From a virus, in IMG/VR virus record IMGVR_UViG_3300050120_000205, positions 1 to 49,019 of that record: a stretch of DNA of 49,019 nucleotides, one strand, 5' to 3'. A program made the position numbers and the translations under genes. Below are positions 4,814-29,257 of this stretch, one piece after another. Within the stretch, counting starts at the first letter, position 1; every line of letters begins with the position of its first letter. A model generated the notes under the pieces. That model saw only the letters and a list, made by a program, of their open reading frames with translations, searched no databases and was not told the DNA's origin.

Positions 4814-5037
4814 TTTTCTGTAATCTCCGTGAGAACAAAAACAATTTCAGTTAAAAAATTTTTATATTTAAAGATGATATTCCCGCCGCAAAATTCTGCA
4901 CCCCGAAGCGCCAGCGGTGCCGGAAATTCATTAGTCGACACGACACGGTCGATACAGTCGCAGGCCAACTCCAAGGACGCAACGTACTCGGAATAGCCGA
5001 CCCCTTTTATTATCCATGAGACCCGGAAATTGCTCAT
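4810..5037 (-). CDS. Hypothetical protein
   Basis: A 75-residue protein overlapping both neighbours by four bases (ATGA). The sequence looks like a small alpha/beta fold (MSNFRVSWIIKGVGYSEYV; then IIFKYKNFLTEIVFVLTEI). No recognised family or catalytic motif. Its position in a translationally coupled operon supports it as a real gene. Confidence 0.6.
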   Translation of the reverse strand: MSNFRVSWIIKGVGYSEYVASLELACDCIDRVVSTNEFPAPLALRGAEFCGGNIIFKYKNFLTEIVFVLTEITEK

Positions 5038-5723
5038 AGGGATCGAATGATCCCAAGCAATGCTTCTTTTTCAGATAACCACGCCGCCGACCACGCCGCC
5101 GACTCCGCCGACTCCGCCGCTGACCGCGCCGACCACGCCGCCGACCACGCCGACTCCGCCGCCGACCACGCCGACTCCGCCGCTGACCGCGCCGACCACG
5201 CCGCCGACCACGCCGACTCCGCCGACTCCGCCGCCGACCACGCCGACTCCGCCGCTGACCGCGCCGCCGACTCCGCCGCCGACTCCGTGTCAAACCCAAT
5301 AAGCTGTTGTTCGCAATACGAAATGACACCCTGAATGGCTGTGACGCATTGTTTCGCGTAGGGTTCGTCGTTCAATACCAACGGTTCCAGCAATTTTTTG
5401 TTACGCCAGATCGCCAGCATCCAGCGGACCGGCTCAAGATCGACGCCGGGTTTAATCGCTTCGAGTAAGTCAGTGCCAAATTGCGCCGCTTCGGCTTTAG
5501 GGACGCCCTCGAAAATAACGTCGGCCAATTGGGCAAGCCAAACAGGAACACCGAGTTCCGTCGGAAAGGCCGCATGATCGTATTTGTTTAATGTACAGCC
5601 CACGAAACAACCTCGGCCATTATCGAAGCCGGTACCTTGGATAACTTCATCCATCTCGCGGTGCAGTTGAAAGCGTTCAACGTACAGTTTCTTAACGGCA
5701 GGGTCGTTGTGGTAGGCCAGCAT
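5034..5723 (-). CDS. Phage protein with C-terminal Ser-Ala-Ala-Glu/Trp repeat
   Basis: A 229-residue protein. The ATG at 5723 has AGGAGA eight bases before it, so it is preferred over a GTG 24 bases upstream. Residues about 1-145 form a normal globular sequence (FVGCTLNKYDHAAFPTEL, PVWLAQLADVIFEG). Residues about 146-215 are built almost only from the units SAAE, SAW, SAAW, SAR and SAE. Similar repeats occur in unrelated phage proteins and probably form long Ala-rich helices. Function unknown; repeat number is likely variable between relatives. Confidence 0.7.
   Translation of the reverse strand: MLAYHNDPAVKKLYVERFQLHREMDEVIQGTGFDNGRGCFVGCTLNKYDHAAFPTELGVPVWLAQLADVIFEGVPKAEAAQFGTDLLEAIKPGVDLEPVRWMLAIWRNKKLLEPLVLNDEPYAKQCVTAIQGVISYCEQQLIGFDTESAAESAARSAAESAWSAAESAESAWSAAWSARSAAESAWSAAESAWSAAWSARSAAESAESAAWSAAWLSEKEALLGIIRSL
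5080..5288. repeat. Low-complexity coding repeat (GCC/GAC/CTC triplets)
   Basis: About 210 bases made of a few triplets, repeated in blocks such as GCCGACTCCGCC and GCCGACCACGCC on the plus strand. It encodes the Ser-Ala-rich tail of the leftward gene. All three plus-strand frames are nearly free of stops, so antisense open frames here are by-products of composition. A site prone to slippage and assembly error. Confidence 0.85.
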
Positions 5724-5739
5724 TTTTAGTTCTCCTATT

Positions 5740-5949
5740 TTATTCACGGGTTACTCCAAGTTTTGCCATCAAGGCAAGGTTTTCTACAGTTAAATCCTCT
5801 TCGGCGCATTGCATCAAAAAGAAACCGCCCGTCGTGTAGCTGCCGCGCTGGAACAGGTACCGGTTATTAACGCTATCGAAACCGCCATACACATATCCCG
5901 ATGGCGCCACGGCACGGCAAATATCTTTATGATTCGGGATCGGTTTCAT
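5740..5949 (-). CDS. Hypothetical protein
   Basis: A 69-residue protein beginning MKPIPNHKDICRAV. The ATG at 5949 overlaps the stop of the upstream gene (ATGA), so it is preferred to an upstream TTG. Contains GYVYGGFDSVNNRYLFQRGS and a helical C-terminus. Not recognised. Confidence 0.6.
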   Translation of the reverse strand: MKPIPNHKDICRAVAPSGYVYGGFDSVNNRYLFQRGSYTTGGFFLMQCAEEDLTVENLALMAKLGVTRE

Positions 5950-6176
5950 TTTGAAATTCCGTTTTCTTTCCAATGGCGTTCCGCCACTTCCAACAAACGT
6001 AACAACGCTGCCGCTTTACCCATGCTTTTCGATGCTTGGGCGCCATTCGGATACATGCAGACGGGGTACGCTATTTTGAAATGAGTTTCGGTTTCCTCGA
6101 ATTTGGCGCACATACAATGCGTTTCCAATTTTTCTTTCGCATCCGTGACGGCTTGAATATTTTCTTTAAGGTTCAT
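5946..6176 (-). CDS. Hypothetical protein, first gene of leftward operon A
   Basis: A 76-residue protein with a helical N-terminus (NIQAVTDAKEKLETHC) and a YPVCMYPNGAQASKSMGKA stretch. The start lies about 25 bases after the predicted transcription start of class I promoter A, with a weak AGGA site. Overlaps the next gene by four bases. No recognised family. Confidence 0.65.
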   Translation of the reverse strand: MNLKENIQAVTDAKEKLETHCMCAKFEETETHFKIAYPVCMYPNGAQASKSMGKAAALLRLLEVAERHWKENGISK

Positions 6177-6206
6177 TACGTAGTCCTGCGCTTTGTCAAT
6201 GAATAG

Positions 6207-6235
6207 AGATTAGTCGTTTAATTCGACCATTGCAA
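6207..6235 (-). promoter_or_regulatory. Class I promoter-operator, copy A
   Basis: Read leftward: -35 TTGCAA (6235-6230), a spacer of exactly 17 bp, and -10 TAATCT (6212-6207). The spacer holds the palindrome GTCG-N7-CGAC (6213-6227). Surrounding bases are also conserved with copies at 29152-29180 and 33372-33400. It drives the small-gene operon 6176-3689. The operator placement suggests repression by a dimeric DNA-binding protein. Confidence 0.75.
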
Positions 6236-6238
6236 GCA

Positions 6239-8581
6239 TTATTTTCTATATCTCGGACCGCGCCAGCCGCCCATTGCGCGAATAGGCCATCCGGCCGCCC
6301 ACGCGGGCATGTCGGCCATAATTTTCTCGAACTCCTCAATCGATCCCCAGAGTTTAAGAATTTCGGCAACGATTTCGTCGTAAACGTGCAATACCACCCG
6401 ATATCCAGCACGTTCTAAACTGATGATGGCGTAGCGCAGAATATCGCGCGCCACGGCCTGGACGATATTCTCCGTCAACCGGCCGCCCCATGTGTCCTTG
6501 CGAATCCAGCCAGTCGGTCCGTTTTTGGGATTGGTGTTCCACCCCTCATAACTGATAGCCAGGCCGCCGCGATCGCTGGGGCGCAACCGTGGCCGGTGGT
6601 ACGTGAGCGTTCGGCCCGATAATAGGCGTAAATGAAGCGCGTCACCACGGTAGAGAAATTTGAAGCCGCGGAACTCGTACTCCACGCCGAGGTTTAGAAC
6701 TGCCGAAATAAACATGCCCTCGACGCCATACATTTCTGGGTAACGCCGGCCGCCCATCCCGCGCCGTTCTTGACCGCCCCAAAATTCCACGATGGCCGGC
6801 GATGCTGCACGCCAGGCGAGAATCGCGTCTTTCATTTCCTGGTCGGTCATAAATTCATCGGCCCCAAAAGCTTTCCATGCGCCAATCCAGCCCCCGTAAC
6901 CTGAAGCCAATTCGGAAATTTTTCCGACCTTTTTTCTCATGATATGGTGCGTGCCGGTAGGGGCGGCTGGCGGTCGGGCGTACCAATCCGGCGCAGCCAA
7001 TTCGGCGTCGGTGTACCCCGCCGCTTTCATAAAGTCCGAAAAGGGAATTCCCGTAACGGCCGCCGCGCCCGCTTCGTAAATTTTACCGTGCGTCCGGAAC
7101 ACATCGCGGCGCCATTGTTCGCCAGCCACTTCTGCCAGCACCACGGCCTCAATGGAAGCGTAATCCGAACACATCAGGTCGTACCCCTCGGCGGCCACAA
7201 ATAGGCCGCGCAGCACGCCGGATATCGCCCCCATGGCATCGCCGAAATAATACTCGACCATATCGAGCGAGCGCGACGAGATGACCGTCAGGGCGTCGGC
7301 GGCCGCGCGCCAACTCCATTCCTCTGTTTTTTGAACCGGCGATAGGGGTTTGGCGCACCACGGGCAAATCATGTGCTGTTTTCCGAAATAATGCCCGCAG
7401 CCGCATTTGAGAACCGCCGGTCCGCTGTTCGGTAAATTGGTCGGCTGCGGGCCGTTGCCGGTCACCCGCCCGGTATGCGCCGCGTGGTAGGAAAATAGGT
7501 CATGCAGCCGCCCGGCACGCGTCGCCTGCAAGCGCATTGCGTAGACTTTCTTGACGGCGGCCGATCCGATGGCTTGGCGGATTTCCAGCGCGCGCCGCGC
7601 CCATGCTGGCAGATCGGTACGTGACAGTGCAGCGTCGATATTCTCTTCGTCCAGCGAGACGAAATGCAAACCGTATTTAGAAAACCATGCCTGCAGCTTG
7701 GCCAATTCGGAAGCACGCATTACGTCGCCGCCCGTCAATGTGGCCAATTCGGCGTTATACCGTGCATGCGCCTGGTCGATAATGGCGATGCAGTTTTCCA
7801 CCCCGTCGATATCGATTTGCACGCCGCGATGGTTGATATCCATATCAGCTTGCCAGAATTCCAACTCTTCGCCGGTCAGATCCGGAATGCGGCTGGATGC
7901 CTCCGCCTCGGCTACGATGTCGCGCTCGTTGTATCCGTAAAACAACGGGCCGTCGACGGGATCCTCGTGCGGGTATAGGCGCTTGGCTTTATTTTTTGCG
8001 GTGGGTTGGCGGGGAACCGAGAATTTTTTAAGAAGCCGATCGCCGTCTTTCAATTTCTGATTTTCGAGTTGTAACACCTCGCCGGTCTTTTCCAGTTTGC
8101 CAGGCAAGCCGAACGCGCGCGCTTTGGCCATCGCGCATCGCATCTGCGACATGGGAAGTGGCGGCCAGCCCAGTTTAGGCATGCAGACTTTTTCCCATAT
8201 CCACGTTTCAAACCCTTTATTCCACGCTTCAATCAAACCGCCGTTGCGTATGTGCATAAAGAGGTCGAGGGGCGGCAGCATGCCGGCCCGCCAATGTTGC
8301 CGGCCGCGCCCGTCTTTCAGATCGTAATAAAGGGATAATATTTCCGTCGATGGATGCTCGGCATAGACAGCCGCGCCGACAATGGTCAAACCTTTTTTAT
8401 TGCCGCTTGCGCCAGGTAACGCAACCCACTTTTGCAAACCCTCGTTCCAATCGTAACCGGCCTCGCTATATGTTTCAAAATCCATATCGGCGAGCACGGT
8501 TGCGTGGCCGAGGCCAGCAATCAGTTTGGTACCGGCGGGAAGGTGTTCGAGGCGTGGCGGAGGTGGTGGGGCAAGCGTCAT
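6239..8581 (-). CDS. DNA polymerase, family A, with 3'-5' exonuclease
   Basis: A 780-residue replicative polymerase. Exonuclease motifs: D34-F-E36 (LADMDFETYSEAGY), an ExoII-like WNKGFETW near 120, and YNERD near 217-221. Polymerase motif A SDYASIEA (Asp473), motif B RKKVGKISELASGYGG (Arg549, Lys554, Tyr562), motif C HVYDEIV (Asp735, Glu736; the usual His before Asp is Tyr). A four-cysteine knuckle (CGCGHYFGKQHMICPWC, 393-409) is inserted between the thumb region and motif A. It overlaps the upstream small gene by ATGA and is last in its operon; its stop lies against promoter A. Confidence 0.95.
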   Translation of the reverse strand: MTLAPPPPPRLEHLPAGTKLIAGLGHATVLADMDFETYSEAGYDWNEGLQKWVALPGASGNKKGLTIVGAAVYAEHPSTEILSLYYDLKDGRGRQHWRAGMLPPLDLFMHIRNGGLIEAWNKGFETWIWEKVCMPKLGWPPLPMSQMRCAMAKARAFGLPGKLEKTGEVLQLENQKLKDGDRLLKKFSVPRQPTAKNKAKRLYPHEDPVDGPLFYGYNERDIVAEAEASSRIPDLTGEELEFWQADMDINHRGVQIDIDGVENCIAIIDQAHARYNAELATLTGGDVMRASELAKLQAWFSKYGLHFVSLDEENIDAALSRTDLPAWARRALEIRQAIGSAAVKKVYAMRLQATRAGRLHDLFSYHAAHTGRVTGNGPQPTNLPNSGPAVLKCGCGHYFGKQHMICPWCAKPLSPVQKTEEWSWRAAADALTVISSRSLDMVEYYFGDAMGAISGVLRGLFVAAEGYDLMCSDYASIEAVVLAEVAGEQWRRDVFRTHGKIYEAGAAAVTGIPFSDFMKAAGYTDAELAAPDWYARPPAAPTGTHHIMRKKVGKISELASGYGGWIGAWKAFGADEFMTDQEMKDAILAWRAASPAIVEFWGGQERRGMGGRRYPEMYGVEGMFISAVLNLGVEYEFRGFKFLYRGDALHLRLLSGRTLTYHRPRLRPSDRGGLAISYEGWNTNPKNGPTGWIRKDTWGGRLTENIVQAVARDILRYAIISLERAGYRVVLHVYDEIVAEILKLWGSIEEFEKIMADMPAWAAGWPIRAMGGWRGPRYRK

Positions 8582-9119: not shown

Positions 9120-10190
9120 TTAATATGGCAGCATATACCCGTGTTGAATGAGCAATGCGTCGGTCCAGCCAGCACCGGTCAACGATTCATAGGTCTGACC
9201 GACGGGAGCTGTGGCCGTCAATGCCTTGGCGCTTGCCATCGGAGGGGGCGGAGGCGGTGCGCCCGCGCCGAGAATAGCTGGGTTAGGGGTAACGGCAAGC
9301 GCAGTCGGTGCAGGGGGTGGTGGCGGAGGCGCAGAACCAGCGGGCGGCAAAGGGGCCGGTGCCACGCGTGCGCGCAAATCGGCTTCCGTCAATACTTCTT
9401 GTCCCATGTAGAAATGACCCGGTGCCGACGGATGCACGATCCATCCGGCAGGGGGCCACGCTACGGCGGCGGGTGCTGGTGGCGCGACGTTAGGGATCAA
9501 AGGCGGCGGAGGCGGTGCGCCCGGTGGTGCTGGTGGCGGAGCAATGTTAGGCATTTGACCGACTGGCGCAGCGGAAGCGCCAGCAGGCAAGGTAACACCC
9601 TGACCGAAGCCGGCAGCGCTCACATCTGGGCCGATGGAAATTTCGGGACCATAACCGGCCAAAGCAACCATGCGATGATTAAAATACAGGCCAGGTGAAT
9701 CAGTAGATTCGTTGTCGTCGACATCGCCAAAGACTTGAACGAAATAGCCGGGTTTGACTGCGTCTTTTTCCATGATCCGCGCGCTGCCGTCGGCGTTCCA
9801 AACTTGCGGAGCTTGACCGCCCGAAAACCAGACGATCCAGTGGCCTTTGTAGCCTTCGCCGTCGCACGGTTTTTTGTTGCTCTTGTTCGGGATTGTGCTG
9901 TCGCCGTCCGTAATTTTCCACGAGAAGTCCGGGCGTTGCGCCGCTGCCGGTTGAACTTGGTGACCGTAGGCCCAAATAGGCGCAAAGAAAGGATGTTGCG
10001 ACCAGTGAGTCTGTCCTGCGATTTTGGCGACGGCAACGCCGAATGACCATTCGCTGCGCGGCTGGCCCTTGCTCGCTCCCGATTTGAATAAGAGCGGTTC
10101 CCCTTTCTGGTTCGTCGTCCTCGGATTGTACAGCGAGCCGCCGATCAAACGAGCCGGCGGCGTTGTAATTTTAAGTTTGGTAGATGCCAT
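9120..10190 (-). CDS. ssDNA-binding-like replication protein (DUF2815-type) with Pro-rich linker
   Basis: A 356-residue protein. Residues 1-200 (ASTKLKITTPPARLIGGSLYN, then SEWSFGVAVAKI, GHWIVWFSGG, VKPGYFVQVFGDV) match phage DUF2815-type single-stranded-DNA-binding proteins, OB-fold-like. Residues about 215-325 are a flexible linker of Pro/Ala runs. The extreme C-terminus (TYESLTGAGWTDALLIQHGY) is a small conserved module. The ATG at 10190 has GGAG upstream; a TTG 15 bases earlier is rejected. It has its own class II promoter and acts with the nuclease and polymerase nearby. Confidence 0.75.
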   Translation of the reverse strand: MASTKLKITTPPARLIGGSLYNPRTTNQKGEPLLFKSGASKGQPRSEWSFGVAVAKIAGQTHWSQHPFFAPIWAYGHQVQPAAAQRPDFSWKITDGDSTIPNKSNKKPCDGEGYKGHWIVWFSGGQAPQVWNADGSARIMEKDAVKPGYFVQVFGDVDDNESTDSPGLYFNHRMVALAGYGPEISIGPDVSAAGFGQGVTLPAGASAAPVGQMPNIAPPPAPPGAPPPPPLIPNVAPPAPAAVAWPPAGWIVHPSAPGHFYMGQEVLTEADLRARVAPAPLPPAGSAPPPPPPAPTALAVTPNPAILGAGAPPPPPPMASAKALTATAPVGQTYESLTGAGWTDALLIQHGYMLPY

Positions 10191-10232
10191 GTGTTGATAC
10201 TCCAAAGTGTTGTTTGTAAAGAATGCCTACTG

Positions 10233-10262
10233 AGAATAATGCTAATTGACGCTCCCGTCAAT
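10233..10262 (-). promoter_or_regulatory. Class II promoter with palindrome over the -35 box
   Basis: Read leftward: TTGACG (10261-10256), 17-bp spacer, TATTCT (10238-10233). The -35 lies inside the palindrome ATTGACG-CTCC-CGTCAAT (10245-10262), which recurs with variation at 12307, 14071, 18750 and 21494. It drives the ssDNA-binding-like gene at 10190. Confidence 0.75.
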
Positions 10263-10264
10263 AT

Positions 10265-11380
10265 CTATTTTCCGAACGCCTTACGCGCCGTCGATCCGTC
10301 ATCGAGCGTAAGCGTCAAGCCGCGTTTGCGCATCGTGTAGCCCGCAACCGCTGCCGCGTCCAAACCGGCTTTTACGGCTTGTATCGGCGTGATAAGTGCA
10401 TCCTTTTTAACGTTGACGCCGAACAGGCTGCCGAGGGCGATTACTTCCGCAACCGGCTTTGACCATTCCTGGCGCCCTTCCGTCGATTGCATCATAAAGT
10501 GCGGGATCATCTCGCCGCGCGTCATGTGAATTTCGGCCTGTTTTTCCAAACCGGTCCTACGCGCTTTAATGAGCAATTCCGCTTCCATTAGCATCTTGAG
10601 TTCCAGCCCAATGGCGTGCGGTGACATATCAAGCGGTACCGATTTCGTCGCCATATCCATGATGCTAAAACCGGTACGCTGCGATGCCTCGCAAGCGTGA
10701 CGGCCACGGCAATCAAGGCACTCCGCATTGACGGTACAAATCGGATTGGGTGACAGCGCAGCATTAGCGGCAGCCTGCAAAATATTGAAATAACCGCGCA
10801 GTGCCGCCGCTGTCGTTTTCCATAACCGAATCGGGCCGTCGCGATGGTACGAACGCGGCTGCACGATATAGAAATGCACTTCCAAAGTCTGGTCCGTTGC
10901 GCCATTGATTCCCAGCTCGTCGAGCACGCCGCAAACATAATCGATTAATTGGTAATTTTCGAATACGTCGACGTAACGATGGCCGAATTTATAATCGATC
11001 ATCGTCAGGATGTGGTTTTGCTCATGGTAAATCCACGCATCGGGCGTACCCCAGTTTTGCGCGTGAACGTAAGGGATCATTACGGGGCGTTCCAGAACAG
11101 CCGTCCCGCCAAAGCACATCACGAGGCGCAAGTGATCGGAATAAACCTCGCCGCAGTCGATCATTTCTTGCGTGACGGCGACGCCGTTTGGTGCGACAAG
11201 CCCCTCGCAAACGATACGATTATGGAACAATTCGAACGCAACCCAGTGGGCCGCCGTGCCATTGGCGGCGTCTACGCTGTCTTCCATCTCAGGATAGAGC
11301 GCTTCCAATGGCACGGAGCCGGCACACCTTACCCAGCGCGGCGCGGACGACGGAGCTAGTACGGCATGCAGGCCGCTCAT
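10265..11380 (-). CDS. DUF2800 PD-(D/E)XK nuclease
   Basis: A 371-residue protein of the DUF2800 family, RecB-like exonucleases found beside phage DNA polymerases. Visible features: N-terminal HAVLAPSSAPRWVRCAGS, TPDAW (Asp114), the core DYK motif in MIDYKFGHRYVDVFENYQL (Asp129, Lys131), and a Cys-rich segment with ECLDCRGRHACEA that could bind metal or an Fe-S cluster. It probably processes DNA ends in recombination or replication. It overlaps the upstream gene by ATGA. Confidence 0.85.
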   Translation of the reverse strand: MSGLHAVLAPSSAPRWVRCAGSVPLEALYPEMEDSVDAANGTAAHWVAFELFHNRIVCEGLVAPNGVAVTQEMIDCGEVYSDHLRLVMCFGGTAVLERPVMIPYVHAQNWGTPDAWIYHEQNHILTMIDYKFGHRYVDVFENYQLIDYVCGVLDELGINGATDQTLEVHFYIVQPRSYHRDGPIRLWKTTAAALRGYFNILQAAANAALSPNPICTVNAECLDCRGRHACEASQRTGFSIMDMATKSVPLDMSPHAIGLELKMLMEAELLIKARRTGLEKQAEIHMTRGEMIPHFMMQSTEGRQEWSKPVAEVIALGSLFGVNVKKDALITPIQAVKAGLDAAAVAGYTMRKRGLTLTLDDGSTARKAFGK

Positions 11381-12261
11381 TCCGTGTAGCCGAGAGCTTT
11401 GGCGACGGCTGGGATCCGGTCAGGGAACGTAACCAGCAACGGAAACGACAGAAGGCCCTGCGCTTCGAGTACCTCTTTGAGTCGTTCCGTCGTCAACGTA
11501 CCGGCCGACATATCCGTCGTAATGCGTTGGCAAAGAAGCGGCCAGGTCATTTCAGGTGCGGGCGGTGTCGCACTTGCCGTAACACCATCCCCCGGCGTCA
11601 CCGCAGTAGGGGCAATACTCATAGCAGGCGGAGGTGGTGGCGGGGGGATAACAGCGACCGCCGGCGCTGCGGGTGCGCCAGCCATTACCGCGCGCATCTC
11701 GGCAGTAACGCGGGCGACCACATCGGCCTCAACGCCCCGTTTCATTTTCCAGCGACCGTCGGCGGTTTGCGTGCGCGTGCTGGCGTGAATTGTTGCATTC
11801 CACGGCAAACCGTCTTTATCGAGCAACGTGCCTGCGGGTGCAACATTCGGTGGTGGGGGTGGCGGGATAACGGTCGGCTGTGTCGAAATACCCGTCGGGG
11901 CCGCGGGGACATTCGTAGGCGTGCCGGCAGCCGCAATAGAGAGCGCACCGGCTGGGGCGTTTCCCGCTTGGCCGAACACACTGGCAGCGGACGGCGTATC
12001 GTCCGTTTTACCGAACACTTCCGAAGCTTCGGGCATGCCGGTTTCGGGGTTGTCGTCCGGATGGATGACCGCGGCGCTCGGCTTGCCGTCGGCTGGGCCG
12101 GTTGTTTTACCGGTAACGCCTTTCCACTCATGAACGGATTTAACGTTCGTGTGGCCGGTCAGCGTCACATCTCCGTTTATCGTAATTTCACCCGTGCCGG
12201 TCAGTTGCCGTGCGAGCGCAACCAGTTCCGCCAGCGTGTCAGCTTCGATTCGAATAGTCAT
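11377..12261 (-). CDS. Conserved phage protein with Pro-rich linkers, replication module
   Basis: A 294-residue protein starting MTIRIEADTLAELVAL. The ATG at 12261 follows an AAGAAAG site; in-frame sequence further upstream runs through the promoter and is rejected. The middle contains LPWNATIHASTRTQTADGRW and KMKRGV, a conserved block seen next to phage nucleases and polymerases, flanked by PPPPPP linkers. The C-terminal helices look like a protein-interaction domain. Its role is unknown, but its position suggests recombination or replication. Confidence 0.7.
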   Translation of the reverse strand: MTIRIEADTLAELVALARQLTGTGEITINGDVTLTGHTNVKSVHEWKGVTGKTTGPADGKPSAAVIHPDDNPETGMPEASEVFGKTDDTPSAASVFGQAGNAPAGALSIAAAGTPTNVPAAPTGISTQPTVIPPPPPPNVAPAGTLLDKDGLPWNATIHASTRTQTADGRWKMKRGVEADVVARVTAEMRAVMAGAPAAPAVAVIPPPPPPPAMSIAPTAVTPGDGVTASATPPAPEMTWPLLCQRITTDMSAGTLTTERLKEVLEAQGLLSFPLLVTFPDRIPAVAKALGYTE

Positions 12262-12271
12262 AAAATCTTTC

Positions 12272-12324
12272 TTGTAAGAGTTGTAGAATCTGGATATTAA
12301 ATGTATATTGACGGGACTGTCAAT
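12272..12324. promoter_or_regulatory. Divergent control region with class II palindrome
   Basis: Palindrome ATTGAC-GGGACT-GTCAAT at 12307-12324. Leftward, TTGACA (12323-12318) followed at 16-17 bp by TTTAAT/TTAATA serves the gene at 12261. Rightward, TTGTAA (12272-12277), 17 bp, TATTAA (12295-12300) would start near the palindrome and serve the helicase at 12337. One operator could therefore control both directions. The rightward promoter is the weaker call. Confidence 0.65.
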
Positions 12325-12336
12325 AAGGATTTTTAA

Positions 12337-14097
12337 ATGATTCCCACGCTTCGCCCGTTCCAATATAAAGCGCATTTAGAGATAAATCAGGCATGGGCCG
12401 AGGGTTGCATTGATGTCGGGCTTAATTCGGCCACGGGTACCGGCAAAACGGTGACCGCTGCATACGAGATGCGCAACAACGTCGGCGGCTCCGCTGCCAT
12501 CGCACACCGTCAGGAATTGGTGACGCAACTATCGGTTGCCCTCGCCGCCAATGAGGTAAGGCATCGTATCATCGGCGCCGATTCCATCAAACGCAATATT
12601 GTATCTTTACATATGGCTGATGGCGGCCGGAATCAGTATGACGCGAACGCCCGTACCGCCGTGGCCGGCGTGCGCACCCTGCTCAATCTTAACCCCCTCG
12701 ACCCCATTTTTACGCAATCGACCAAATCCATTTGGGACGAGGGGCATCACGTCCTACGCGAGAACGAGTGGGGCCGCGCCCGCGTTATGTTTAGCCACAA
12801 GGACCATAAAGCCCTGCACGTGTCGGCCACATGGGTGCGCGCCGACGGGCAAGGCCACGGGCGCCACGCTGATGGGTTTATCGATCGGCTGATTAACGCA
12901 CCATCGATGCGCGACCAAATCAATTGCGGTTATCTGACGCCTTACAAAATTATTACCCTGCAGACGAGTGACCTTGACCTGACCAGCGTCAAGCGTAGCG
13001 CCGACGGAGATTTTAATAAACACCAATTGTCCGAAGCGGTCCACAAGTCAAACCGGCTTGTTGGCGATGTGGTCGAGCATTACTTAGAGCGCGCGCCGGG
13101 TAAGCTGGGCGTAACATTCGCCGTTGACGTGGCCGCCGCCATTGAGATTGCCGCTGCGTTCCGTGCGCGAGGCGTGCCGGCCGAGGTGGTCAGCGCCAAA
13201 ACGCTAGATCATTTACGCATGGATATCCTGCGGCGCTTCAAACGCCGCGAAATCCTGCAGCTCGTCAACGTCGATCTGTTCGGCGAGGGGTTTGATCTGC
13301 CGGCCATTGAGGTTGTATCGTTCGCCAGGCCGACCGACTCGTGGGCGCTTTATTGTCAGCAATTTGGCCGCGCGCTCCGTCTGATGATCGATCCTGTCTT
13401 TGCGGCAAACTGGGGGAGTTACACCGACGCCGAACGCATCTATTACATCTCAATTAGCGTCAAGCCGTACGCGATTATCCTTGACCACGTGGGTAACGTC
13501 CTGCGCCATTTCGGGCCGCCGGATATCCGCGCCACGTTCGATCTGGATCGTCGCGAGCGCCGGGGATCGGCAACCGGCAGCGACGCCATCCCGTACCGCG
13601 TATGCGCCAATCCGAACGACCCGGCAACCGGCCTGCCGTGCGCGCAGCCATACGAACGGTTTTATAAATGTTGCCCGTATTGCGGCTATTATCCGGAGCC
13701 TCTCTTACGTAGCGGCCCGCAATACGTCGACGGCAAGTTATACGAGCTGGACGAGGCGACGATTAAAGCGCTTTGGGGTAACGTGCTCAATCTGGAAGCG
13801 CCGGCGCCGATACCTGGCGGAATGTCGGGCATCATTCAGGCATCGATCCGCAATAAGCACGGTGAACGCGTCGAGGCGCAACGAAAATTACGCACGGCTA
13901 TGTCGTGGTGGTCCGGGTTGCAGGATGCGCTCGGCTGGCCGGGCGAGGAAGAGAAACAAAGCCGATTTTATTTGATGTTCGGAATCGATGTCCTGACGGC
14001 CCAATCGCTTAACCGTGTCGATAGCGAAAAATTGCATCTAAAAATCTATAACGTGCTGCAAAAATACAACATTGACGGCCTCGTCAATATGGCTTAA
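12337..14097 (+). CDS. DEAD/DEAH-box (SF2) helicase
   Basis: A 586-residue helicase. Walker A ATGTGKT at 32-38, Walker B variant DEGHH at 134-138, motif III SAT at 163-165, and motif VI QQFGRALR at 341-348, preceded by FGEGFDLPAIEVV. A cysteine cluster with CCPYCGYY near residue 450 suggests a zinc ribbon. The fold resembles phage and restriction-type SF2 translocases; a role in replication fork or recombination processing is inferred from the neighbours. AAGGAT precedes the ATG. The C-terminal codons overlap the next class II promoter. Confidence 0.9.
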   Translation: MIPTLRPFQYKAHLEINQAWAEGCIDVGLNSATGTGKTVTAAYEMRNNVGGSAAIAHRQELVTQLSVALAANEVRHRIIGADSIKRNIVSLHMADGGRNQYDANARTAVAGVRTLLNLNPLDPIFTQSTKSIWDEGHHVLRENEWGRARVMFSHKDHKALHVSATWVRADGQGHGRHADGFIDRLINAPSMRDQINCGYLTPYKIITLQTSDLDLTSVKRSADGDFNKHQLSEAVHKSNRLVGDVVEHYLERAPGKLGVTFAVDVAAAIEIAAAFRARGVPAEVVSAKTLDHLRMDILRRFKRREILQLVNVDLFGEGFDLPAIEVVSFARPTDSWALYCQQFGRALRLMIDPVFAANWGSYTDAERIYYISISVKPYAIILDHVGNVLRHFGPPDIRATFDLDRRERRGSATGSDAIPYRVCANPNDPATGLPCAQPYERFYKCCPYCGYYPEPLLRSGPQYVDGKLYELDEATIKALWGNVLNLEAPAPIPGGMSGIIQASIRNKHGERVEAQRKLRTAMSWWSGLQDALGWPGEEEKQSRFYLMFGIDVLTAQSLNRVDSEKLHLKIYNVLQKYNIDGLVNMA

Positions 14098-14100
14098 AGT
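14071..14100 (+). promoter_or_regulatory. Class II promoter inside the helicase 3' end
   Basis: ATTGACG-GCCT-CGTCAAT (14071-14088) contains TTGACG (14072-14077); 17 bp later stands TAAAGT (14095-14100). The palindrome is perfect although it also encodes helicase residues. The gene at 14125 follows with a good RBS. Confidence 0.7.
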
Positions 14101-14124
14101 GGCTGAAATTTAGGAGAATAAGAA

Positions 14125-14526
14125 ATGTTCAACATCCCCCGTTACCTGGCGTCGCATCCGAAGCGCTGGGCCAAAAAGATTAAAGAATGGGCTAAACAAG
14201 TAGAAGACCGTCAGAGAATGCAAGACCGGCTAAAAAACCCTCAGTCTTTTGTACAATGGGTTCATTTTCCATCAGAACATCCGAACTGTCGTTGCTCAGT
14301 TGTAATTCCAAAAATCAAAAGACTGACGTATGAAACCGGCGATTTCGTAACGGTTTATGATCGGTACCGCTTCGCTATCCCTTTGCAAGCTGTTGTAAAG
14401 ATGCGCAGCTCGTCAAACGACGGCATAGAAGTCGTTCTCGAAAACAGCAACAACCCAAACTATCCGACGGGTTCGGCAATTTGGGTTCACGCGCATCAAT
14501 TAGAAAGACGTGAGGTTAAGCAATGA
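14125..14526 (+). CDS. Hypothetical protein
   Basis: A 133-residue protein with a basic helical N-terminus (HPKRWAKKIKEWAKQVEDRQ) and a beta-rich remainder (YETGDFVTVYDRYRFAIPLQ). RBS TAGGAG. It includes HPNCRC, a string also seen at the end of MuF-type head proteins, but nothing else matches that family. First gene after a class II promoter; function unknown. Confidence 0.6.
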   Translation: MFNIPRYLASHPKRWAKKIKEWAKQVEDRQRMQDRLKNPQSFVQWVHFPSEHPNCRCSVVIPKIKRLTYETGDFVTVYDRYRFAIPLQAVVKMRSSSNDGIEVVLENSNNPNYPTGSAIWVHAHQLERREVKQ

Positions 14527-14735
14527 TTCGCCCCGAAAATATGGTAAAAATACAAGTAGAACCCGCTGCGACACCGCAAGAACGCCTATTTGCCATCCGT
14601 CGCAGTCTCGACGAATTGGTGCAAAATTTTTGGGACGCCGGTATCGTCGTCACGGTTGAACTTATGCCGCAACAGCCGCTTGCGATGGGTAATTACAAAC
14701 CTGTTGTTTCATTGCGGCCGGTGCGTAAACAATGA
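14523..14735 (+). CDS. Hypothetical protein
   Basis: A 70-residue protein overlapping its neighbours by ATGA on both sides. Sequence is amphipathic helix followed by a beta hairpin (TPQERLFAIRRSLDELVQNF; GIVVTVELMPQ). Not recognised; coupled to the VRR-NUC gene. Confidence 0.6.
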   Translation: MIRPENMVKIQVEPAATPQERLFAIRRSLDELVQNFWDAGIVVTVELMPQQPLAMGNYKPVVSLRPVRKQ

Positions 14736-15208
14736 ACCTGTATGTCTGGGCTGCGCGTTGGAAAATACCGCTCGAAGCCGTGGCCGATCTGCAAAATCTT
14801 ATCGGCCTGGATGGTACGCCCGGCAACGATAGCCACGTGGGTAAATCCGAAGCGTTCGCGCAGTCGCAGGTTGTTCTCGAAGCGGCACGCAAGGGTATTC
14901 GACTGTGGCGTAATAATGTCGGCGTGTTGGAAGATAGCCGCGGCGTTCCGGTGCATTTCGGGCTGGCCAATGACGCTAAAGGTACCAATAAATTAATCAA
15001 ATCAAGCGACTTAATCGGCGTGCGACCCGTGCTCATTACGCCCGAATTGCTCGGCTGTACGATCGGTCAGTTCGTGGGCCGCGAGATTAAAAAACCCGGC
15101 TGGAAATATACTGGCGAGGACCGGGAAGAGAAACAGCTTAATTTTGCCGGCTTGGTGTGCAGCTTGGGCGGTGACGCGGCATTTGCTACTGGGGAGGGGA
15201 CGCTATGA
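14732..15208 (+). CDS. VRR-NUC domain nuclease
   Basis: A 158-residue protein with the VRR-NUC pattern: SEAFAQSQVVLEAARKGIRL, then SSDLIGVRPV (metal-binding Asp), the E-x-K core in GQFVGREIKKPGW, and the late KQLNFAGLVCSLGGDAAFA signature. Stand-alone phage VRR-NUC enzymes are structure-selective nucleases, several resolving Holliday junctions. It probably acts on recombination or packaging intermediates with the nearby RdgC and helicase. Overlaps both neighbours by four bases. Confidence 0.85.
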   Translation: MNLYVWAARWKIPLEAVADLQNLIGLDGTPGNDSHVGKSEAFAQSQVVLEAARKGIRLWRNNVGVLEDSRGVPVHFGLANDAKGTNKLIKSSDLIGVRPVLITPELLGCTIGQFVGREIKKPGWKYTGEDREEKQLNFAGLVCSLGGDAAFATGEGTL

Positions 15209-15411
15209 AGACGTTCGAAGAGTTTTATCGAGCCGGTGAATTCGAAAAGCTCGCGAACCGTTCGATAGGGACGACGTTCACGCGTAAAGCGGCTGCACGG
15301 GAAATGCGTGAGGTTATGATCAAAAACTTAAATCTCAGCGGTGTTCCAAACACGATGCATACTTTAAGATTGATCGGTTTGAATATGACTATCGCGGGTT
15401 CGGGACTGTGA
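15205..15411 (+). CDS. Hypothetical protein
   Basis: A 68-residue basic helical protein (MKTFEEFYRAGEFEKLANRS; RKAAAREMREVMIKN). Overlaps VRR-NUC by ATGA and the next gene by GTGA. No recognised family. Confidence 0.6.
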   Translation: MKTFEEFYRAGEFEKLANRSIGTTFTRKAAAREMREVMIKNLNLSGVPNTMHTLRLIGLNMTIAGSGL

Positions 15412-16026
15412 ATGTGCTTATCGGAGGTGAAACCTCGGGCCGGGTTCGTGACGCCTTTCGGCGCCGCGGGCATAACGCGGTATCTTGCGATTTGTTGCCG
15501 ACGGATGTTCCGGGGCCGCATCATCAGTGCGACATGTTCGAGCTTTTAGGCGGCCCGTGGGACTTGGCGGTTTTTCACCCGTCCTGTACGTTCCTTAGCG
15601 TGAGCGGCATGCACTGGAATAAAAACCCGTCTTCCGTTCGATTCGGCGGTTTGCAGACCGAAAAAGCGCTCGACGACGTGCGGCGGCTTCTCGATTGCAA
15701 AATTCCCCGTTTCTGTTTAGAAAATCCGATCGGAATTATCAGTACGCGCATACGTCCGGCCTCGCAATATATCCAGCCGTACGATTTCGGCGAAGACGCA
15801 TCAAAAAAAAACAGGTTTTTGGCTTAACAATTTACCGCCTCTTACACCTACGAAGCGCGTTCCGGGCCGCATGGTACTACATAAGGGTAAACTGGTTGAA
15901 CGCTGGTCGAATCAGACTGATAGCGGTCAAAATAAACTCGGTCCCAGCGAGGACCGTTGGAAATTACGTAGCGAAACATACCTCGGAATTGCCGAGGCGA
16001 TGGCTGAACAATGGGGGATTTTATGA
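15408..16026 (+). CDS. DNA methylase-like protein, interrupted by a +1 shift at an A9 run
   Basis: Starts at GTG 15408 (GTGA overlap). The N-terminus NVLIGGETSGRVRDAFRRRG, FHPSCTFLSVSG and LENPIGI fit a phage SAM-dependent DNA cytosine methylase-like family. The frame as given ends at TAA 15825-15827 soon after nine A residues (15803-15811). Skipping one base continues with TGFWLNNLPPLTPTKRV, VERWSNQTDSGQNKLG and IAEAMAEQWGIL, ending at TGA 16024-16026, which overlaps the next ATG as ATGA. The downstream part is clearly the missing C-terminus. Cause: sequencing or true homopolymer indel, transcriptional slippage, or recoding. Confidence 0.8.
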
Positions 16027-16259
16027 GTGACGCAGCAGACGATGCCGCCCAGCGCGAGGAATTGGAACGCACGATTGCAGTTGCGGCAGCGCGTCAAGTG
16101 CCGCCCGATGCGCAACCAGTTCTTGACTGCATAGAATGCAGCAACATGACGCAGGCCGAAGCAAAAGTAAAATGCGAGTTTTTCGCCAATTGCGTATCCG
16201 ATTGGACACGCCTTACACGTATGACAAAAATAAAAGGGAAACCCGATGGCTTGGTTTAA
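16023..16259 (+). CDS. TraR/DksA-like zinc-finger protein (divergent)
   Basis: A 78-residue protein starting MSDAADDAAQREELERTIAV, the usual N-terminal helix of small phage TraR/DksA-like proteins. The zinc knuckle is altered: CIEC then CEFFANC, without the classical IPxxR segment. Family members bind RNA polymerase through its secondary channel. The ATG at 16023 is chosen from the ATGA overlap and the family N-terminus. A weaker call because the finger is divergent. Confidence 0.6.
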   Translation: MSDAADDAAQREELERTIAVAAARQVPPDAQPVLDCIECSNMTQAEAKVKCEFFANCVSDWTRLTRMTKIKGKPDGLV

Positions 16260-17130
16260 GAGCATGACCCCGTACCGATTCAATGGCGCCGCACTGGTGA
16301 TATCTGACGAAGCGGCAAAGCAATACGCGTTCGCCCCTTGTGGCGCATTAGAAATTGAGTCGCGCGGCTGGATCGAACCGGTCGAGGACATGGGCCTGAT
16401 TTACGCGGTAAATGGCCAGCAGTTTATGCGCCTGGCGATCGAACGCAAGAATCTACCAAAGCAAGTAATCGACGCACAAGTTAAATTGCGCTGCAAGGAA
16501 CTGGAAAAGTTGCAGGGCTTCGTGCCGGGCCGCAAACAGACCCGCGAATTACGCGAGAACGTTATCGACGAATTGCTTCCGCGCGCCTTTGCGACACGCT
16601 CGTCGGTTGACATCTGGATTGATCCCGCAAACGGCTGGCTTGTGGTCGGTACCGCCAGTAGTACGGCAGCCGAAGCAGCCTTGACGCACCTCATTCGTTC
16701 GTTCGATAAATTCCCCGTCGAAACGCTTCGTACCAACATGTCACCCGGCGCCGCAATGACCATGTGGCTGCAGCAGGACGAAACGCCGGCCGAGTTCCGC
16801 GCCGATCAAGATACCGAACTGCGATCCAGCGGCGAAGGAAACGCGACGGTGCGTTACGTGCATCACACGCTTGAAGCCGATGACATGAATCGTCACATTG
16901 CCGCCGGCAAGCAATGTACGCGCCTGGCCCTGACCTGGCAGGATAAGATATCGTTTGTTCTGACCGATACTTGGCGGCTTAAAAGCATCGCTCCGTTGGA
17001 TGTGCTGAAAGAGACTGAGGACGATCAAACCCTTGCGGGTGAGCTGATGCTGATGACGGGCGAATTTAACCGGTTGTTGCGTGACCTGGTTGATGCGCTG
17101 GGCGGCGAGATGGAAAGTGACGAAACGTGA
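16246..17130 (+). CDS. rdgC: RdgC-like recombination-associated protein
   Basis: A 294-residue protein aligned by eye with E. coli RdgC (303 residues): AWFKSMTPYRFNG, FAPCGALEIESRGWIEPVED, VNGQQFMRLAIERKNLP, ENVIDELLPRAFATRS, NHIAAGKQCTRLAL-like segment (here MNRHIAAGKQCTRLAL), and the terminal LMLMTGEFNRLLRDLVDALG. RdgC forms a ring around DNA and restrains RecA. In a phage it could modulate host or phage recombination. It overlaps the zinc-finger gene before it and the methyltransferase after it. Confidence 0.9.
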   Translation: MAWFKSMTPYRFNGAALVISDEAAKQYAFAPCGALEIESRGWIEPVEDMGLIYAVNGQQFMRLAIERKNLPKQVIDAQVKLRCKELEKLQGFVPGRKQTRELRENVIDELLPRAFATRSSVDIWIDPANGWLVVGTASSTAAEAALTHLIRSFDKFPVETLRTNMSPGAAMTMWLQQDETPAEFRADQDTELRSSGEGNATVRYVHHTLEADDMNRHIAAGKQCTRLALTWQDKISFVLTDTWRLKSIAPLDVLKETEDDQTLAGELMLMTGEFNRLLRDLVDALGGEMESDET

Positions 17131-18770
17131 GGCCGGTGTCTTACGGTTCGGTCTGTTCTGGAATCGAGGCGGCAACGGCAGCGTGGGAGGAATTCGGCTG
17201 GGAAGCCAAATGGTTTGCTGAAATAGAAGCGGCCCCGTCTTCCGTGTTGCGACACCACTATCCTAAAGTCCCTAATCTCGGCGACATGACGAAGTTGGCT
17301 GCGATGGTGCGCTTGGGACTTATTCCCGCGCCCGATGTGTTGGTCGGCGGTACCCCTTGCCAAGCGTTTAGCGTTGCCGGTCTGCGTGGCGGCATGGCTG
17401 ACCTTCGCGGGCAATTAACCCTTTCATTTGTGGATTTAGCCAATGCTATCGACGAACAACGTCCTGATGACGAATGCGTTATCTACTGGGAAAATGTCCC
17501 CGGTGTCCTCTCAGACAAAAAAAATGCATTTGGATGTTATCTCGCCGCCCTTGCCGGCAGCGACGACGAACTCATACCCGAACCTCGACCCGCTGCCGGT
17601 AAAAATAGCGCGCATTGGCGGTGGTCGAAAAAGTCGGGAAACCATTCACTCAGTTGGCCGAACGTTGGTTGTGTGTATGGACCCCGCCGCACAATCTCAT
17701 GGCGCGTCTTCGATGCCCAATATTTCGGAGTGGCCCAACGACGCCGACGTGTGTTCCTTGTGGCAAGTTCTCGAGCAGGGTTCAATCCCGAAAAATTACT
17801 TTTTGAGTTCGACGGCGTGCGCAGGGATTCTCCGCCGCGCCGAGAAACGGGGCAAAGTTCTACCCACGAGACTGCGCCTTGCCTTACAAGCAGTGGCCGG
17901 GGTGTCGCCAGAACCGGCGACACCCGCGGACAAGATCCAGTAGTTGCGGTTTGCCCGACCTTACGCGCCGGCGGAAATGAGACTGGCGGCGATCGGCCCC
18001 CAGGTACCGACGTGGATACCTGCGATAGCCTGATTCTAGTGATGGCACACGGTCAGGCTGGTGCGGACGTAAGCGTCGGGCTACGGTCGACGCTTACGTG
18101 CAATCACGAGGCGCCCATCGCGTTCTATTCGGAAGCGCATCAAGACCTTATGCCGACGATGCTCAACGGCGCTAACGGCCCCGCCGGTCACAATGCTCGT
18201 TCCGGTCATACGAAAGATTCCTATATCGTCCCCGTGTGCGTCACCGGAACAGTGACGCATACGCTTCGCGCCGACGGATTTGATGCAAGCGAAGACGGTA
18301 CCGGACGGGGAACCCCTATCGTGGTCCACGGCACGCAAGACCCCTGCGTAAGCGAACACCTGGCGTTTGCGTTAGGGCGCAACAATGGCGGCGAGAATGC
18401 GGTGCTGTCCGTTGCGTCGAGTGGTGGTGACAAGGCGCGCGTACTTGCTCCGCTCTCTGAGGCATCCCGTTTGGTTGCGGGATGCCTCACAAGTAATTAC
18501 GGGAAACAACTAGATAACAGCGATACATCTCTCGGCCCGAATGTCGCCATAAATGGAATGCGGGTCCGCCGCTTAATGCCGATCGAATGCGAACGCTTGT
18601 AAGCGTTTCCCGACAATTACACGCAGGTACCGCACAATGGCAAGCCAATGAAAGACGGCCCGCGTTACAAAGTTTTAGGCAATAGTATGTGCGTGCGCAA
18701 TATGCGATGGCTAGCTAATAGACTGATTATTACGCATCCTGAATTATTCATTGACCGGTCCGTCAATTAA
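17127..18770 (+). CDS. DNA C5-cytosine methyltransferase, interrupted by an in-frame TAA
   Basis: Motif I SVCSGIEAATAAW (about 8-20), motif IV GGTPCQAFSVAG with catalytic Cys78, motif VI YWENVPGVLSD (ENV at 122-124), motif VIII QRRRRVFLVAS, then a long variable target-recognition region. Reading as given stops at TAA 18600-18602 (codon 492), right after RRLMPIECERL. In the same frame the sequence goes on AFPDNYTQVPHNGKPMKDG, KVLGNSMCVRNMRWLANRL and ends at TAA 18768-18770, supplying motifs IX-X. The family normally has Gln at the stop position (CAA versus TAA). Full length would be 547 residues. It may be a pseudogene, read through, or a sequence error. Confidence 0.85.
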
Positions 18771-18780
18771 AGATTAAACT
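18750..18780 (+). promoter_or_regulatory. Class II promoter before the TetR-like gene
   Basis: ATTGAC-CGGTCC-GTCAAT (18750-18767) contains TTGACC (18751-18756), followed at 18 bp by TAAACT (18775-18780). The palindrome overlaps the last codons and the stop of the full-length methyltransferase frame. The next ATG is at 18811. Confidence 0.7.
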
Positions 18781-18810
18781 AGCCGTAGATCACTCAAAGA
18801 AAAGTATAAA

Positions 18811-19119
18811 ATGCCACGCCTCAAATTAAAACCGACTGACCGCAAGCAACAAATCCTTACCGCTGCAATTTCCTTGGCGGTAAAGGACGGGTATCAGAAA
18901 GTGACGCGTGAGGCGATAGCGGAAGCGGCATTGTGCTCGCCGGGGCTTGTGTCGAATTATTTTAATACGATGACGCAGTGCCGCCGGGCCATTATGCGCG
19001 CGGCCATCAAAGACCGTAATTTGACCATCATTGCGCAGGGGGTTGTCGCCAAAGATAAAGACGCCCTTAAAGCGCCGACTGAGTTGCAAGAAGCCGCCCT
19101 CAAATCTCTGACTGCATAG
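18811..19119 (+). CDS. Small TetR-like transcriptional regulator
   Basis: A 102-residue protein with the N-terminal TetR DNA-binding domain: DRKQQILTAAISLAVKDGYQ, TREAIAEAALCSPGLVSNYF and the following helix ending MRAAI (about residues 10-70). It lacks the large ligand-binding domain of full TetR proteins, ending with a short helix. Similar short TetR-like proteins occur in this phage group. A class II palindrome lies in its promoter, so autoregulation and control of the other four class II sites are plausible; this link is inferred. Confidence 0.75.
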   Translation: MPRLKLKPTDRKQQILTAAISLAVKDGYQKVTREAIAEAALCSPGLVSNYFNTMTQCRRAIMRAAIKDRNLTIIAQGVVAKDKDALKAPTELQEAALKSLTA

Positions 19120-19123
19120 CCAC

Positions 19124-21523
19124 ATGCAACGACTACCCGACGCTTTGGCGCCGCTCGCGGCGTACCGGCAATTTATCGTCTACAAATTATCGCCCGACCC
19201 GCACAAGCCGGGGAAACTCAAAAAACAGCCCGCCGATTGGCGTACCGGTATCGTCGCACGCGGAACCGAGTTTTTAACTGACGCCCAAACGGCCATTTCG
19301 GCTGTAGCGTCCCTCGGGTCCGAGTACGGCGTGGGGTTCGAGTTCCAAGCCAGCGACCCGTTCTGGTTTCTGGATATCGACGGCTGTCTTTTGCCGGATG
19401 GTTCTCGCTGGTCCCCACTCGCCGAACAATTGGTGCAGGCTTTTTCCGATGCGGCCATCGAAGTGTCGACTTCCGGTAAAGGGCTGCACATCATCGGATC
19501 GGGCCGCGCCCCGCACCACGCCTGCCGCAACAAGGCGTACGGCTTGGAGTTCTATACCGAAAAGCGCTTCGTTGCGTTAACCGGTACGCACGCGGTCGGA
19601 TCCGTTTCGTCCGATTACACCGCGTCATTGCCTAGCCTGGTGCATCAATTCTTTCAGCCTTTGTCTGACAGCGCCGATCTATCCGCTGACTGGTCTGACG
19701 GACCTTGTGACGAGTGGAAAGGAAGTTTGGACGACGAGGAATTGTTACAGAGAATGCTGCGTTCGACCAGTGGCGCGCATGCTTTTAGCGGCAAGGCATC
19801 TTTCCGCGATTTGTTCGAATGCAACATCGATGCGCTGGTTAAGACCTACCCGCCGGACAGCGCCACGAGCGCGACACCCTACAACGCATCCAGCGCCGAT
19901 CGTGCGCTCGCGCAAATGCTGGCGTTTTGGACCGGCAAGGATTGCGAGCGGATCCAGCGCATCATGCAGCGCTCGGCGCTGGTGCGCGCCAAGTGGGACC
20001 GCGATGATTATATGGAAGCGACGATATTGTCGGCCGTCGCCACTTGCACCACGGTATTGACCGATAAGGATCCCGAACCGGTCGCGGGGGCGCCGGAAAT
20101 AGCGGCAAGCGCCAGCACCATGAAGGGGGAACGGGCCGCCGCGGAGATGGTCACGGGTTCCATGTATTCGGGCGTGCCGGAACAGCTCGCCTTATTCGGT
20201 GGCTGCGTATACGTGTTCGACGTAAACCGTATCCTCGTGCCGGGCGGCCTGTTGCTCAAACAGGATCAATTCCGCGTCATGTTCGGCGGCTATACGTTCG
20301 TCATGAGCAACGGCAACGACCGTACCATACGCGACGCCTACGAATGTTTTACGCAATCCCCGACCTACCGCTCCCCGCGCGCCGACAGCACTTGTTTCAA
20401 GCCGGACCGTGCGGCCGGCGAGATTATCCGCGATGCTGGCCGTACCCGCGTTAATGTGTGGTGGCCGATCGATGTGCCGCGCCAGGTCGGCGACGCCGGG
20501 CCGTTCCTGCGCCATCTCGAAAAGCTGTTGCCGAATGAGCGGGACCGGGAAATATTGCTGTCCTACATGTGCGCTTGCGTACAGCACAAGGGTGTTAAAT
20601 TCCAATGGGCGCCCTTGTTGCAAGGCGTCGAGGGCAACGGCAAAACGATGCTCACGCGTTGCGTTGCCGAGGCGATCGGTAAACGGTACGTGCATTGGCC
20701 AAAGGCGTCAAAGCTGGCCAAAGAGTTTAATGCTTGGATGCTCAATAAGTTGTTTTACGGCGTCGAGGATATTTACGTACCGGGCAATAAGCGCGATGTG
20801 ATCGAAGAGTTAAAACCAATGATTACCGGCGATGACCTGGAAATCGAGGGTAAAGGCGTCGACCAGATTTCAGCCGATATTTGCGGCAATTTTATGTTCA
20901 ATTCGAATCATAAAGATGCGCTCGTAAAAACCCGAAAAGACCGTCGTTTTGCTATTTTCTATACGCCGCAACAATTGGAAGAGGATTTGGCGCGCGACGG
21001 CATGACCGGTGATTATTTCCCGAAGCTGTACGAGTGGTTACGTGCCGGCGGTTACGCCATCGTGTCGGAATTGCTACACACCCGCCCTATCCGTGACGAA
21101 TTTAATCCGGCTACGAGTTGCATGCGCGCACCAATCACCACGTCGACGGAAGAGGCGATTAGCGAAAGTTTAGGACGTGTCGAGCAAGAAATCCTCGAAG
21201 CGGCCGAGATACATACGCCAGGCTTTGCGAACGGCTGGGTTTCATCGATCGCACTCGGCAATCTGCTGGAGAACCTTGGCAACGCGTCTCGTATCCCGCT
21301 CAATAAACGCCGGGATCTGATGGCGGGTTTGGGCTATTCCTACCATCCGGGCTTAGAGGGCGGCCGCGTCAATTCCAACATTTTGCCGGACGGCGGCAAG
21401 CCCCGTTTATATATCAAAAAAGACCACCCGCAACGCCTGCTTACCGGCGCCCATGTGATCGCTCAAGCCTATACCGAAGCGCAGAAAATAGATATTGACG
21501 CTTCCGTCAATAAGGCGGCATAA
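19124..21523 (+). CDS. Primase-helicase (Prim-Pol-like domain plus SF3/DUF5906 helicase)
   Basis: A 799-residue two-domain replication protein. The N-terminal primase-polymerase domain has FWFLDIDGC (Asp84, Asp86) and STSGKGLHIIG. The C-terminal helicase has Walker A GVEGNGKT at 501-508, a Walker B-like FYGVEDIYV, and the sensor FNSNHKDALVKTRKDRRF, as in DUF5906/D5-type phage primases. It would prime and unwind for the family A polymerase. It starts five bases after the TetR-like gene, probably co-transcribed. The last codons overlap another class II promoter. Confidence 0.92.
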   Translation: MQRLPDALAPLAAYRQFIVYKLSPDPHKPGKLKKQPADWRTGIVARGTEFLTDAQTAISAVASLGSEYGVGFEFQASDPFWFLDIDGCLLPDGSRWSPLAEQLVQAFSDAAIEVSTSGKGLHIIGSGRAPHHACRNKAYGLEFYTEKRFVALTGTHAVGSVSSDYTASLPSLVHQFFQPLSDSADLSADWSDGPCDEWKGSLDDEELLQRMLRSTSGAHAFSGKASFRDLFECNIDALVKTYPPDSATSATPYNASSADRALAQMLAFWTGKDCERIQRIMQRSALVRAKWDRDDYMEATILSAVATCTTVLTDKDPEPVAGAPEIAASASTMKGERAAAEMVTGSMYSGVPEQLALFGGCVYVFDVNRILVPGGLLLKQDQFRVMFGGYTFVMSNGNDRTIRDAYECFTQSPTYRSPRADSTCFKPDRAAGEIIRDAGRTRVNVWWPIDVPRQVGDAGPFLRHLEKLLPNERDREILLSYMCACVQHKGVKFQWAPLLQGVEGNGKTMLTRCVAEAIGKRYVHWPKASKLAKEFNAWMLNKLFYGVEDIYVPGNKRDVIEELKPMITGDDLEIEGKGVDQISADICGNFMFNSNHKDALVKTRKDRRFAIFYTPQQLEEDLARDGMTGDYFPKLYEWLRAGGYAIVSELLHTRPIRDEFNPATSCMRAPITTSTEEAISESLGRVEQEILEAAEIHTPGFANGWVSSIALGNLLENLGNASRIPLNKRRDLMAGLGYSYHPGLEGGRVNSNILPDGGKPRLYIKKDHPQRLLTGAHVIAQAYTEAQKIDIDASVNKAA

Positions 21524-21524
21524 T
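21494..21524 (+). promoter_or_regulatory. Class II promoter in the primase 3' end
   Basis: ATTGACG-CTTC-CGTCAAT (21494-21511) contains TTGACG (21495-21500); CATAAT (21519-21524) follows at 18 bp. The palindrome is kept although it encodes primase residues. It would start transcription near 21531, upstream of the gene at 21596. Confidence 0.7.
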
Positions 21525-29118: not shown

Positions 29119-29151
29119 AATTTACTTTCTTTAGGGGTTGTCGATGGGTAG

Positions 29152-29180: not shown

Positions 29181-29257
29181 GCATTTTTCAATTTATTTCG
29201 CAATGGCGCAACATTCCGCAATCGCATACAATCGCAGCCATCTAAGGGGGCCGCTCA

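Follow-up and report, generated by a model that had tools for sequence, protein, structure and literature searches.

TetR-type repressors whose own promoters contain dyad operators are already known. Canonical TetR proteins total about 200 amino acids and carry a C-terminal domain for ligand binding and dimerisation, and the consensus operator of SmcR/LuxR contains ATTGAT-N6-ATCAAT. The LuxR protein of Vibrio recognises a dyad operator of 21 bp whose central 4 bp are unspecific, and can both activate and repress (PMC2628434). Cro/CI-type repressors are small helix-turn-helix proteins with operators over early promoters, that of their own gene included. Phage proteins of the TetR type have been recorded as PHROG 8723 and, in GenBank, as 'TetR family transcriptional regulator' (for example Pantoea phage AAM22 gp73, vB_KsaM-C1, Scuro_24), and for these entries no operator, regulon or function was given in the records or papers found. 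The half-size phage version described here appears to be new, as do its predicted operator and regulon: the open-access literature searched contained no earlier account of a half-size TetR-type protein in early control of virulent phages that acts through such an operator set.

We analysed a 49,019-nt stretch of DNA from a bacterial virus (the window, at its full length), in which five palindromes of the form ATTGAC-N6-GTCAAT accompany a gene for a 102-aa TetR-like protein. The five sites are very probably operators of this protein, a putative half-size, autoregulating repressor that would shut early promoters. The predicted operators, the proposed repressor and the associated genes are as follows.

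10245..10262: predicted operator 1, ATTGACGCTCCCGTCAAT, over the minus-strand promoter of the SSB gene (9120-10205)
12307..12324: predicted operator 2, ATTGACGGGACTGTCAAT, between divergent genes
14071..14088: predicted operator 3, ATTGACGGCCTCGTCAAT, within the 3' end of the helicase gene
18750..18767: predicted operator 4, the auto-operator, ATTGACCGGTCCGTCAAT, at the promoter of the TetR-like gene (plus strand)
21494..21511: predicted operator 5, ATTGACGCTTCCGTCAAT, within the 3' end of the primase gene
9120..10205, minus strand: target, gp2.5-like ssDNA-binding/annealing protein (SSB gene), phrog_7011
10265-11380: exonuclease gene, downstream of the gene at 11377..12261
11377..12261, minus strand: target, gene to the left of operator 2, function not assigned, start set by comparison with L123
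12337..14097, plus strand: target, superfamily II helicase, phrog_16, Helicase_C
14125..14526, plus strand: leading gene of the operon that follows operator 3, function not assigned
14732-15208: predicted endonuclease gene, further along the operon behind operator 3
18811..19119, plus strand: TetR-like protein of 102 aa, proposed repressor, Pfam TetR_N, phrog_8723
19124..21523, plus strand: NrS-1-polymerase-like primase/helicase, phrog_1829, PF22763, PF19263

The TetR-like protein scores 30.6 bits against PF00440 (TetR_N; cut-off 24) and matches the PHROG 8723 profile ('unknown function') with an E-value of 9.2e-32; it shares both protein family and module with the recorded phage entries. TetR chains from the PDB align over approximately its first 60 residues, and its AlphaFold model is all-helical and confident (mean pLDDT 86). 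The closest solved folds are LuxR/SmcR/HapR and other TetR proteins, with weak E-values. In the AlphaFold model short helices follow the helix-turn-helix, and the C-terminal domain for ligand binding and dimerisation is missing; given this and its length, the protein is a TetR_N-domain protein rather than a canonical full-length TetR. It shares with the LuxR/SmcR/HapR group the DNA-binding domain, the nearest folds and, by prediction, a dyad operator with an unspecific 4-bp centre, the predicted phage operator lying one base per arm from the SmcR/LuxR consensus, but differs from these proteins of about 200 aa in its half size, its missing ligand domain, its phage origin and its predicted targets, which are phage early promoters. 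The likeness to Cro/CI-type repressors lies in the small helix-turn-helix protein and the placement of its predicted operators; unlike these, the phage system has a TetR fold and single operators at many dispersed promoters, in phages without integrase. The primase/helicase gene, immediately 3' of the TetR-like gene, is probably co-transcribed with it.

A pattern search of the whole window returned exactly five matches to ATTGAC-N6-GTCAAT, at the positions in the original prediction (10245, 12307, 14071, 18750 and 21494), and none in 100 dinucleotide shuffles of the window (shuffled expectation 0.00). The ten inner arm bases, TTGAC...GTCAA, again gave five exact sites, and no 16-mer one mismatch away from these arms was found anywhere in the window, which sets the five apart from background. 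Since a G adjoins the left arm and a C the right arm in four of the five sites each, the fuller window operator is ATTGACG-N4-CGTCAAT, and the refined operator consensus is (A/G)TTGACG-N4-CGTCAA(T/C). Two copies do lie inside coding sequence, as had been claimed: those at 14071 and 21494 are intragenic, at the helicase and primase 3' ends respectively, and both are read in the same frame, as I-D-x-x-V-N.

All five window sites coincide with a sigma70-like promoter in at least one orientation, defined by a -10 hexamer with at least 4/6 matches to TATAAT at a spacer of 16-18 bp. At 10245 the minus strand reads TTGACG (10261-10256), a spacer of 17 and TATTCT (10238-10233). The site at 12307 serves as a -35 box on the minus strand, with TAATAT at spacer 18 or TTTAAT at spacer 16, facing the divergent gene whose start was corrected from 12375 to 12261; the same palindrome also covers the -10/start region of the plus-strand helicase promoter TTGTAG-17-TATATT (12281-12309). 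As two opposed promoters are overlapped, this single site could control both divergent units. On the plus strand, 14071 provides TTGACG/17/TAAAGT for the operon starting at 14125, 18750 provides TTGACC/18/TAAACT for the TetR-like gene, and 21494 provides TTGACG/18/CATAAT for the operon after 21523. The -10 of this last promoter touches the first possible start codon, and its target gene therefore more likely starts at ATG 21547. The idea that each TTGAC half-site is a -35 box pointing to a gene start thus held for all five in one orientation or more, with two adjustments: the helicase side of 12307 is an overlap with the -10/start region, and the start behind 21494 probably shifts. When 99 sites were pooled from 13 genomes, -10 candidates agreeing with TATAAT in 4/6 or more positions were commonest at spacer 17 (47 of 198 orientations), followed by spacer 18 with 29, against mostly 8-15 at other distances.

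Several other features of the window were noted. A DNA methyltransferase-like ORF (15408-16030, phrog_757) ends soon after an A-run at about 15803-15811 and is carried on in another frame by the overlapping ORF 15695-16030, a frameshift that may be real or a sequencing error. The replication module includes a phage-borne RdgC-like gene (16246-17130, PF04381, E 6e-91). A 74-nt promoter repeat occurs in three minus-strand copies (6170-6243, 29115-29188, 33335-33408), at two places before small minus-strand ORFs, with a -35 of TTGCAA, a 17-bp spacer and a -10 of TATTCT or TAATCT; the spacer holds an inverted repeat, TAGTCG...CGACTA, that is perfect only at 33335. These repeats are a second operator/promoter class with a putative regulator. 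The ORF at 5034-5747 (minus strand) encodes a long repeat of the S-A-A-E-S-A-W-S type built from 9- and 12-bp units. The window ends in a 225-bp direct repeat with one mismatch (1-225 and 48795-49019), so the contig looks like a complete genome.

The association between motif and protein was examined across IMG/VR in both directions. Scanning the collection with ATTGACG-N4-CGTCAAT gave at least 118 stretches, of which 15, among the matches listed, encode a TetR-like relative; a control palindrome matched in base composition gave 72 stretches, none with such a relative. In the opposite direction, 40 loci were chosen by protein alone through two scans with peptide patterns. For scanning the collection, two tighter alignments took the place of a more diverse one of 12 sequences. 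Among the 40 loci, 32 have the palindrome immediately before the TetR gene; many of the phages share ancestry, so that neither this count nor the others represent independent events. Together the 40 loci contain 76 matches to TTGAC-N6-GTCAA, compared with one for N5, three for N7, and zero and six for two reversed forms, and 121 matches to TGACG-N4-CGTCA compared with none for the reversed pattern. The N4 centre is variable, and the arms are therefore what is kept. Counts over whole records found the motif in 22 of 33 records and in 13 of another 14. Each relative's genome contains 2-14 sites, and the reversed controls give none, rarely one; a motif no commoner than chance in relatives, which the original prediction had named as a refutation, was therefore not seen.

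A tblastn search identified 31 phage records with the TetR-like protein. When all gapped palindromes were counted blindly, the motif ranked first in four cultured phages, namely Klebsiella phage PCCM_KpPS2 (Jedunavirus), vB_KsaM-C1, Pantoea phage AAM22 and Edwardsiella phage MSW-3. Each contains 7-14 sites, mostly intergenic and just upstream of genes: of the 45 sites mapped in these four annotated genomes, 34 are intergenic (background 5-11%) and 43 lie near a CDS start (background 37-44%). All five window positions recur in relatives. By a hand tally of 22 related loci, the equivalent of operator 1 at the SSB gene is present in all 22, the site at the helicase 3' end in 17, the auto-site in nearly all and one close to the 3' end of primase in 10; sites in the divergent helicase region recur in most relatives. 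These comparative data support the original idea of replication promoters joined into one regulon by palindromic operators, with the promoter of the TetR-like gene included. In the window the sites lie in the replication module, as first noted; in relatives the regulon is wider, and many sites outside that module precede small cassettes that interrupt the late genes and often run on the other strand, a placement that fits early genes.

Acinetobacter phage Scuro carries a changed operator, TTGACA-N4-TGTCA, and its recognition helix also differs. Five TGACA-N4-TGTCA sites were found against a null mean of 0.005, and they include one at the promoter of its TetR gene, one in the divergent region before helicase and one at the SSB-gene position. 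The whole operator set is thus altered together, as predicted for a shared trans-acting partner, and the change fits co-evolution of the regulator with its putative operators. Compared by eye, without statistics, the recognition helix has a small residue, G or A, where the operator is present (CSPGLVSNYF, VAMGSVNHH), and P, Q or S in most phages without it (VTPPALTYH). The TTGACG-N4-CGTCAA set is absent from Vibrio, Aeromonas, Alteromonas and some other relatives that carry the TetR gene; most members of one such group (L126-L134 and L139, from Vibrio, Aeromonas, Shewanella, Alteromonas and other phage records) have the orthologous gene without this palindrome, and their operator could reveal a change of specificity. 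For Pseudoalteromonas phage PY6, GTAGCGC-N4-GCGCTAC was considered as the operator and set aside; it is GC-rich and lies behind genes, and may be a terminator.

That the operators belong to another phage regulator or to a host regulator, the TetR-like gene being merely one target, is unlikely. Many phages have the TetR gene without the palindrome, and about 100 IMG/VR stretches, among the matches listed, have the palindrome without a nearby TetR relative. Three of the stretches (L037, L043, L063) lack a TetR relative and hold two TTGAC-N6-GTCAA-like palindromes 48-70 bp apart, which look like operators and may serve an unrelated regulator whose site is similar. The unlinked matches are, however, of the same order as those of the control palindrome (72), and the motif tracks the TetR gene through Klebsiella, Pantoea, Edwardsiella and uncultured phages, among which hosts and other regulators vary. 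Its presence at the TetR gene's own promoter in most protein-selected loci and the joint alteration of all positions in Scuro also speak against this alternative, and a host regulator in particular is disfavoured by the two-way association and the promoter placement. The link to the TetR-like protein is supported by the association in both directions and the co-varying operator in Scuro.

Assignment of the operators to the TetR-like protein leaves its role to be considered. An autoregulated repressor with several operators over early promoters resembles CI-type control, and the protein could instead maintain lysogeny or immunity in a temperate phage. This is quite improbable: a domain search of the window and of five cultured relatives gave no tyrosine or serine integrase, and no relative of the protein turned up among 84,980 bacterial and archaeal genomes in either of two scans, whose queries returned 40 loci from viral contigs. 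A plasmid-like prophage form may exist for these phages, but the lack of an integrase or recombinase and of relatives in bacterial and archaeal genomes argues for virulent phages and for early-gene shut-off over lysogeny.

In the mechanism that we propose for this shut-off, a dimer of the 102-aa protein would bind the refined consensus, which in sigma70-type promoters spans the -35 hexamer together with the beginning of the spacer and, at 12307, also the -10 of the opposing promoter; a dimer placed there would deny RNA polymerase access. The regulon would comprise the early replication and recombination operons and the repressor's own gene; the operators overlap core promoter elements of genes whose early status is taken from their function. 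During infection the early promoters would fire, the repressor would build up, and it would then close them together with its own promoter. As a ligand domain is absent, the timing would depend on how much repressor is present and not on an inducer. In 19 of 32 distinct cases, the window's included, the auto-operator has no G after TTGAC in its -35 half; this could mean weaker self-repression, but related sequences dominate the count. From the sequence data we infer binding, repression rather than activation, and the timing of shut-off.

Some TetR-type proteins, such as LuxR (PMC2628434), also activate, and the operators could in principle recruit RNA polymerase to middle promoters. We consider activation very improbable: most TetR proteins repress, a dimer bound over the -35 hexamer and spacer should block polymerase, and the auto-site would create a positive loop. 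It is hardly credible that the palindromes serve as signals for replication or packaging, as their location in the window's replication module might suggest, or that they arose as chance repeats, since chance is excluded by the shuffles, the control palindrome and the reversed-pattern counts, and the sites in relatives are genome-wide, tied to promoters and gene starts with a -10 peak at spacer 17 and an intergenic preference, and neither tandem nor origin-like; replication iterons are likewise disfavoured by the two-way association and promoter placement.

The pairing of this putative repressor with its operator set recurs in dozens of other phages, which gives PHROG 8723 a likely function. 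On balance we favour, with somewhat better than even confidence, a widespread and apparently undescribed form of virulent-phage control in which a ligand-free half-size TetR timer shuts down its own gene and every early operon simultaneously, through five operator positions that stay fixed over long evolutionary distances (two in the helicase and primase 3' ends) and shift in sequence in concert in at least one lineage. An uncharacterised phage protein family thereby gains a function open to testing, along with a DNA target and a set of regulated genes, and early promoters are predicted at once for many phages, the Klebsiella Jedunavirus phages among them. A TetR-type protein would fill a role usual for Cro/CI-like proteins in phages that seem not to integrate, and the window, the Klebsiella group, Scuro and the Vibrio group would provide a natural series for the joint change of specificity in a regulator and its operator set.
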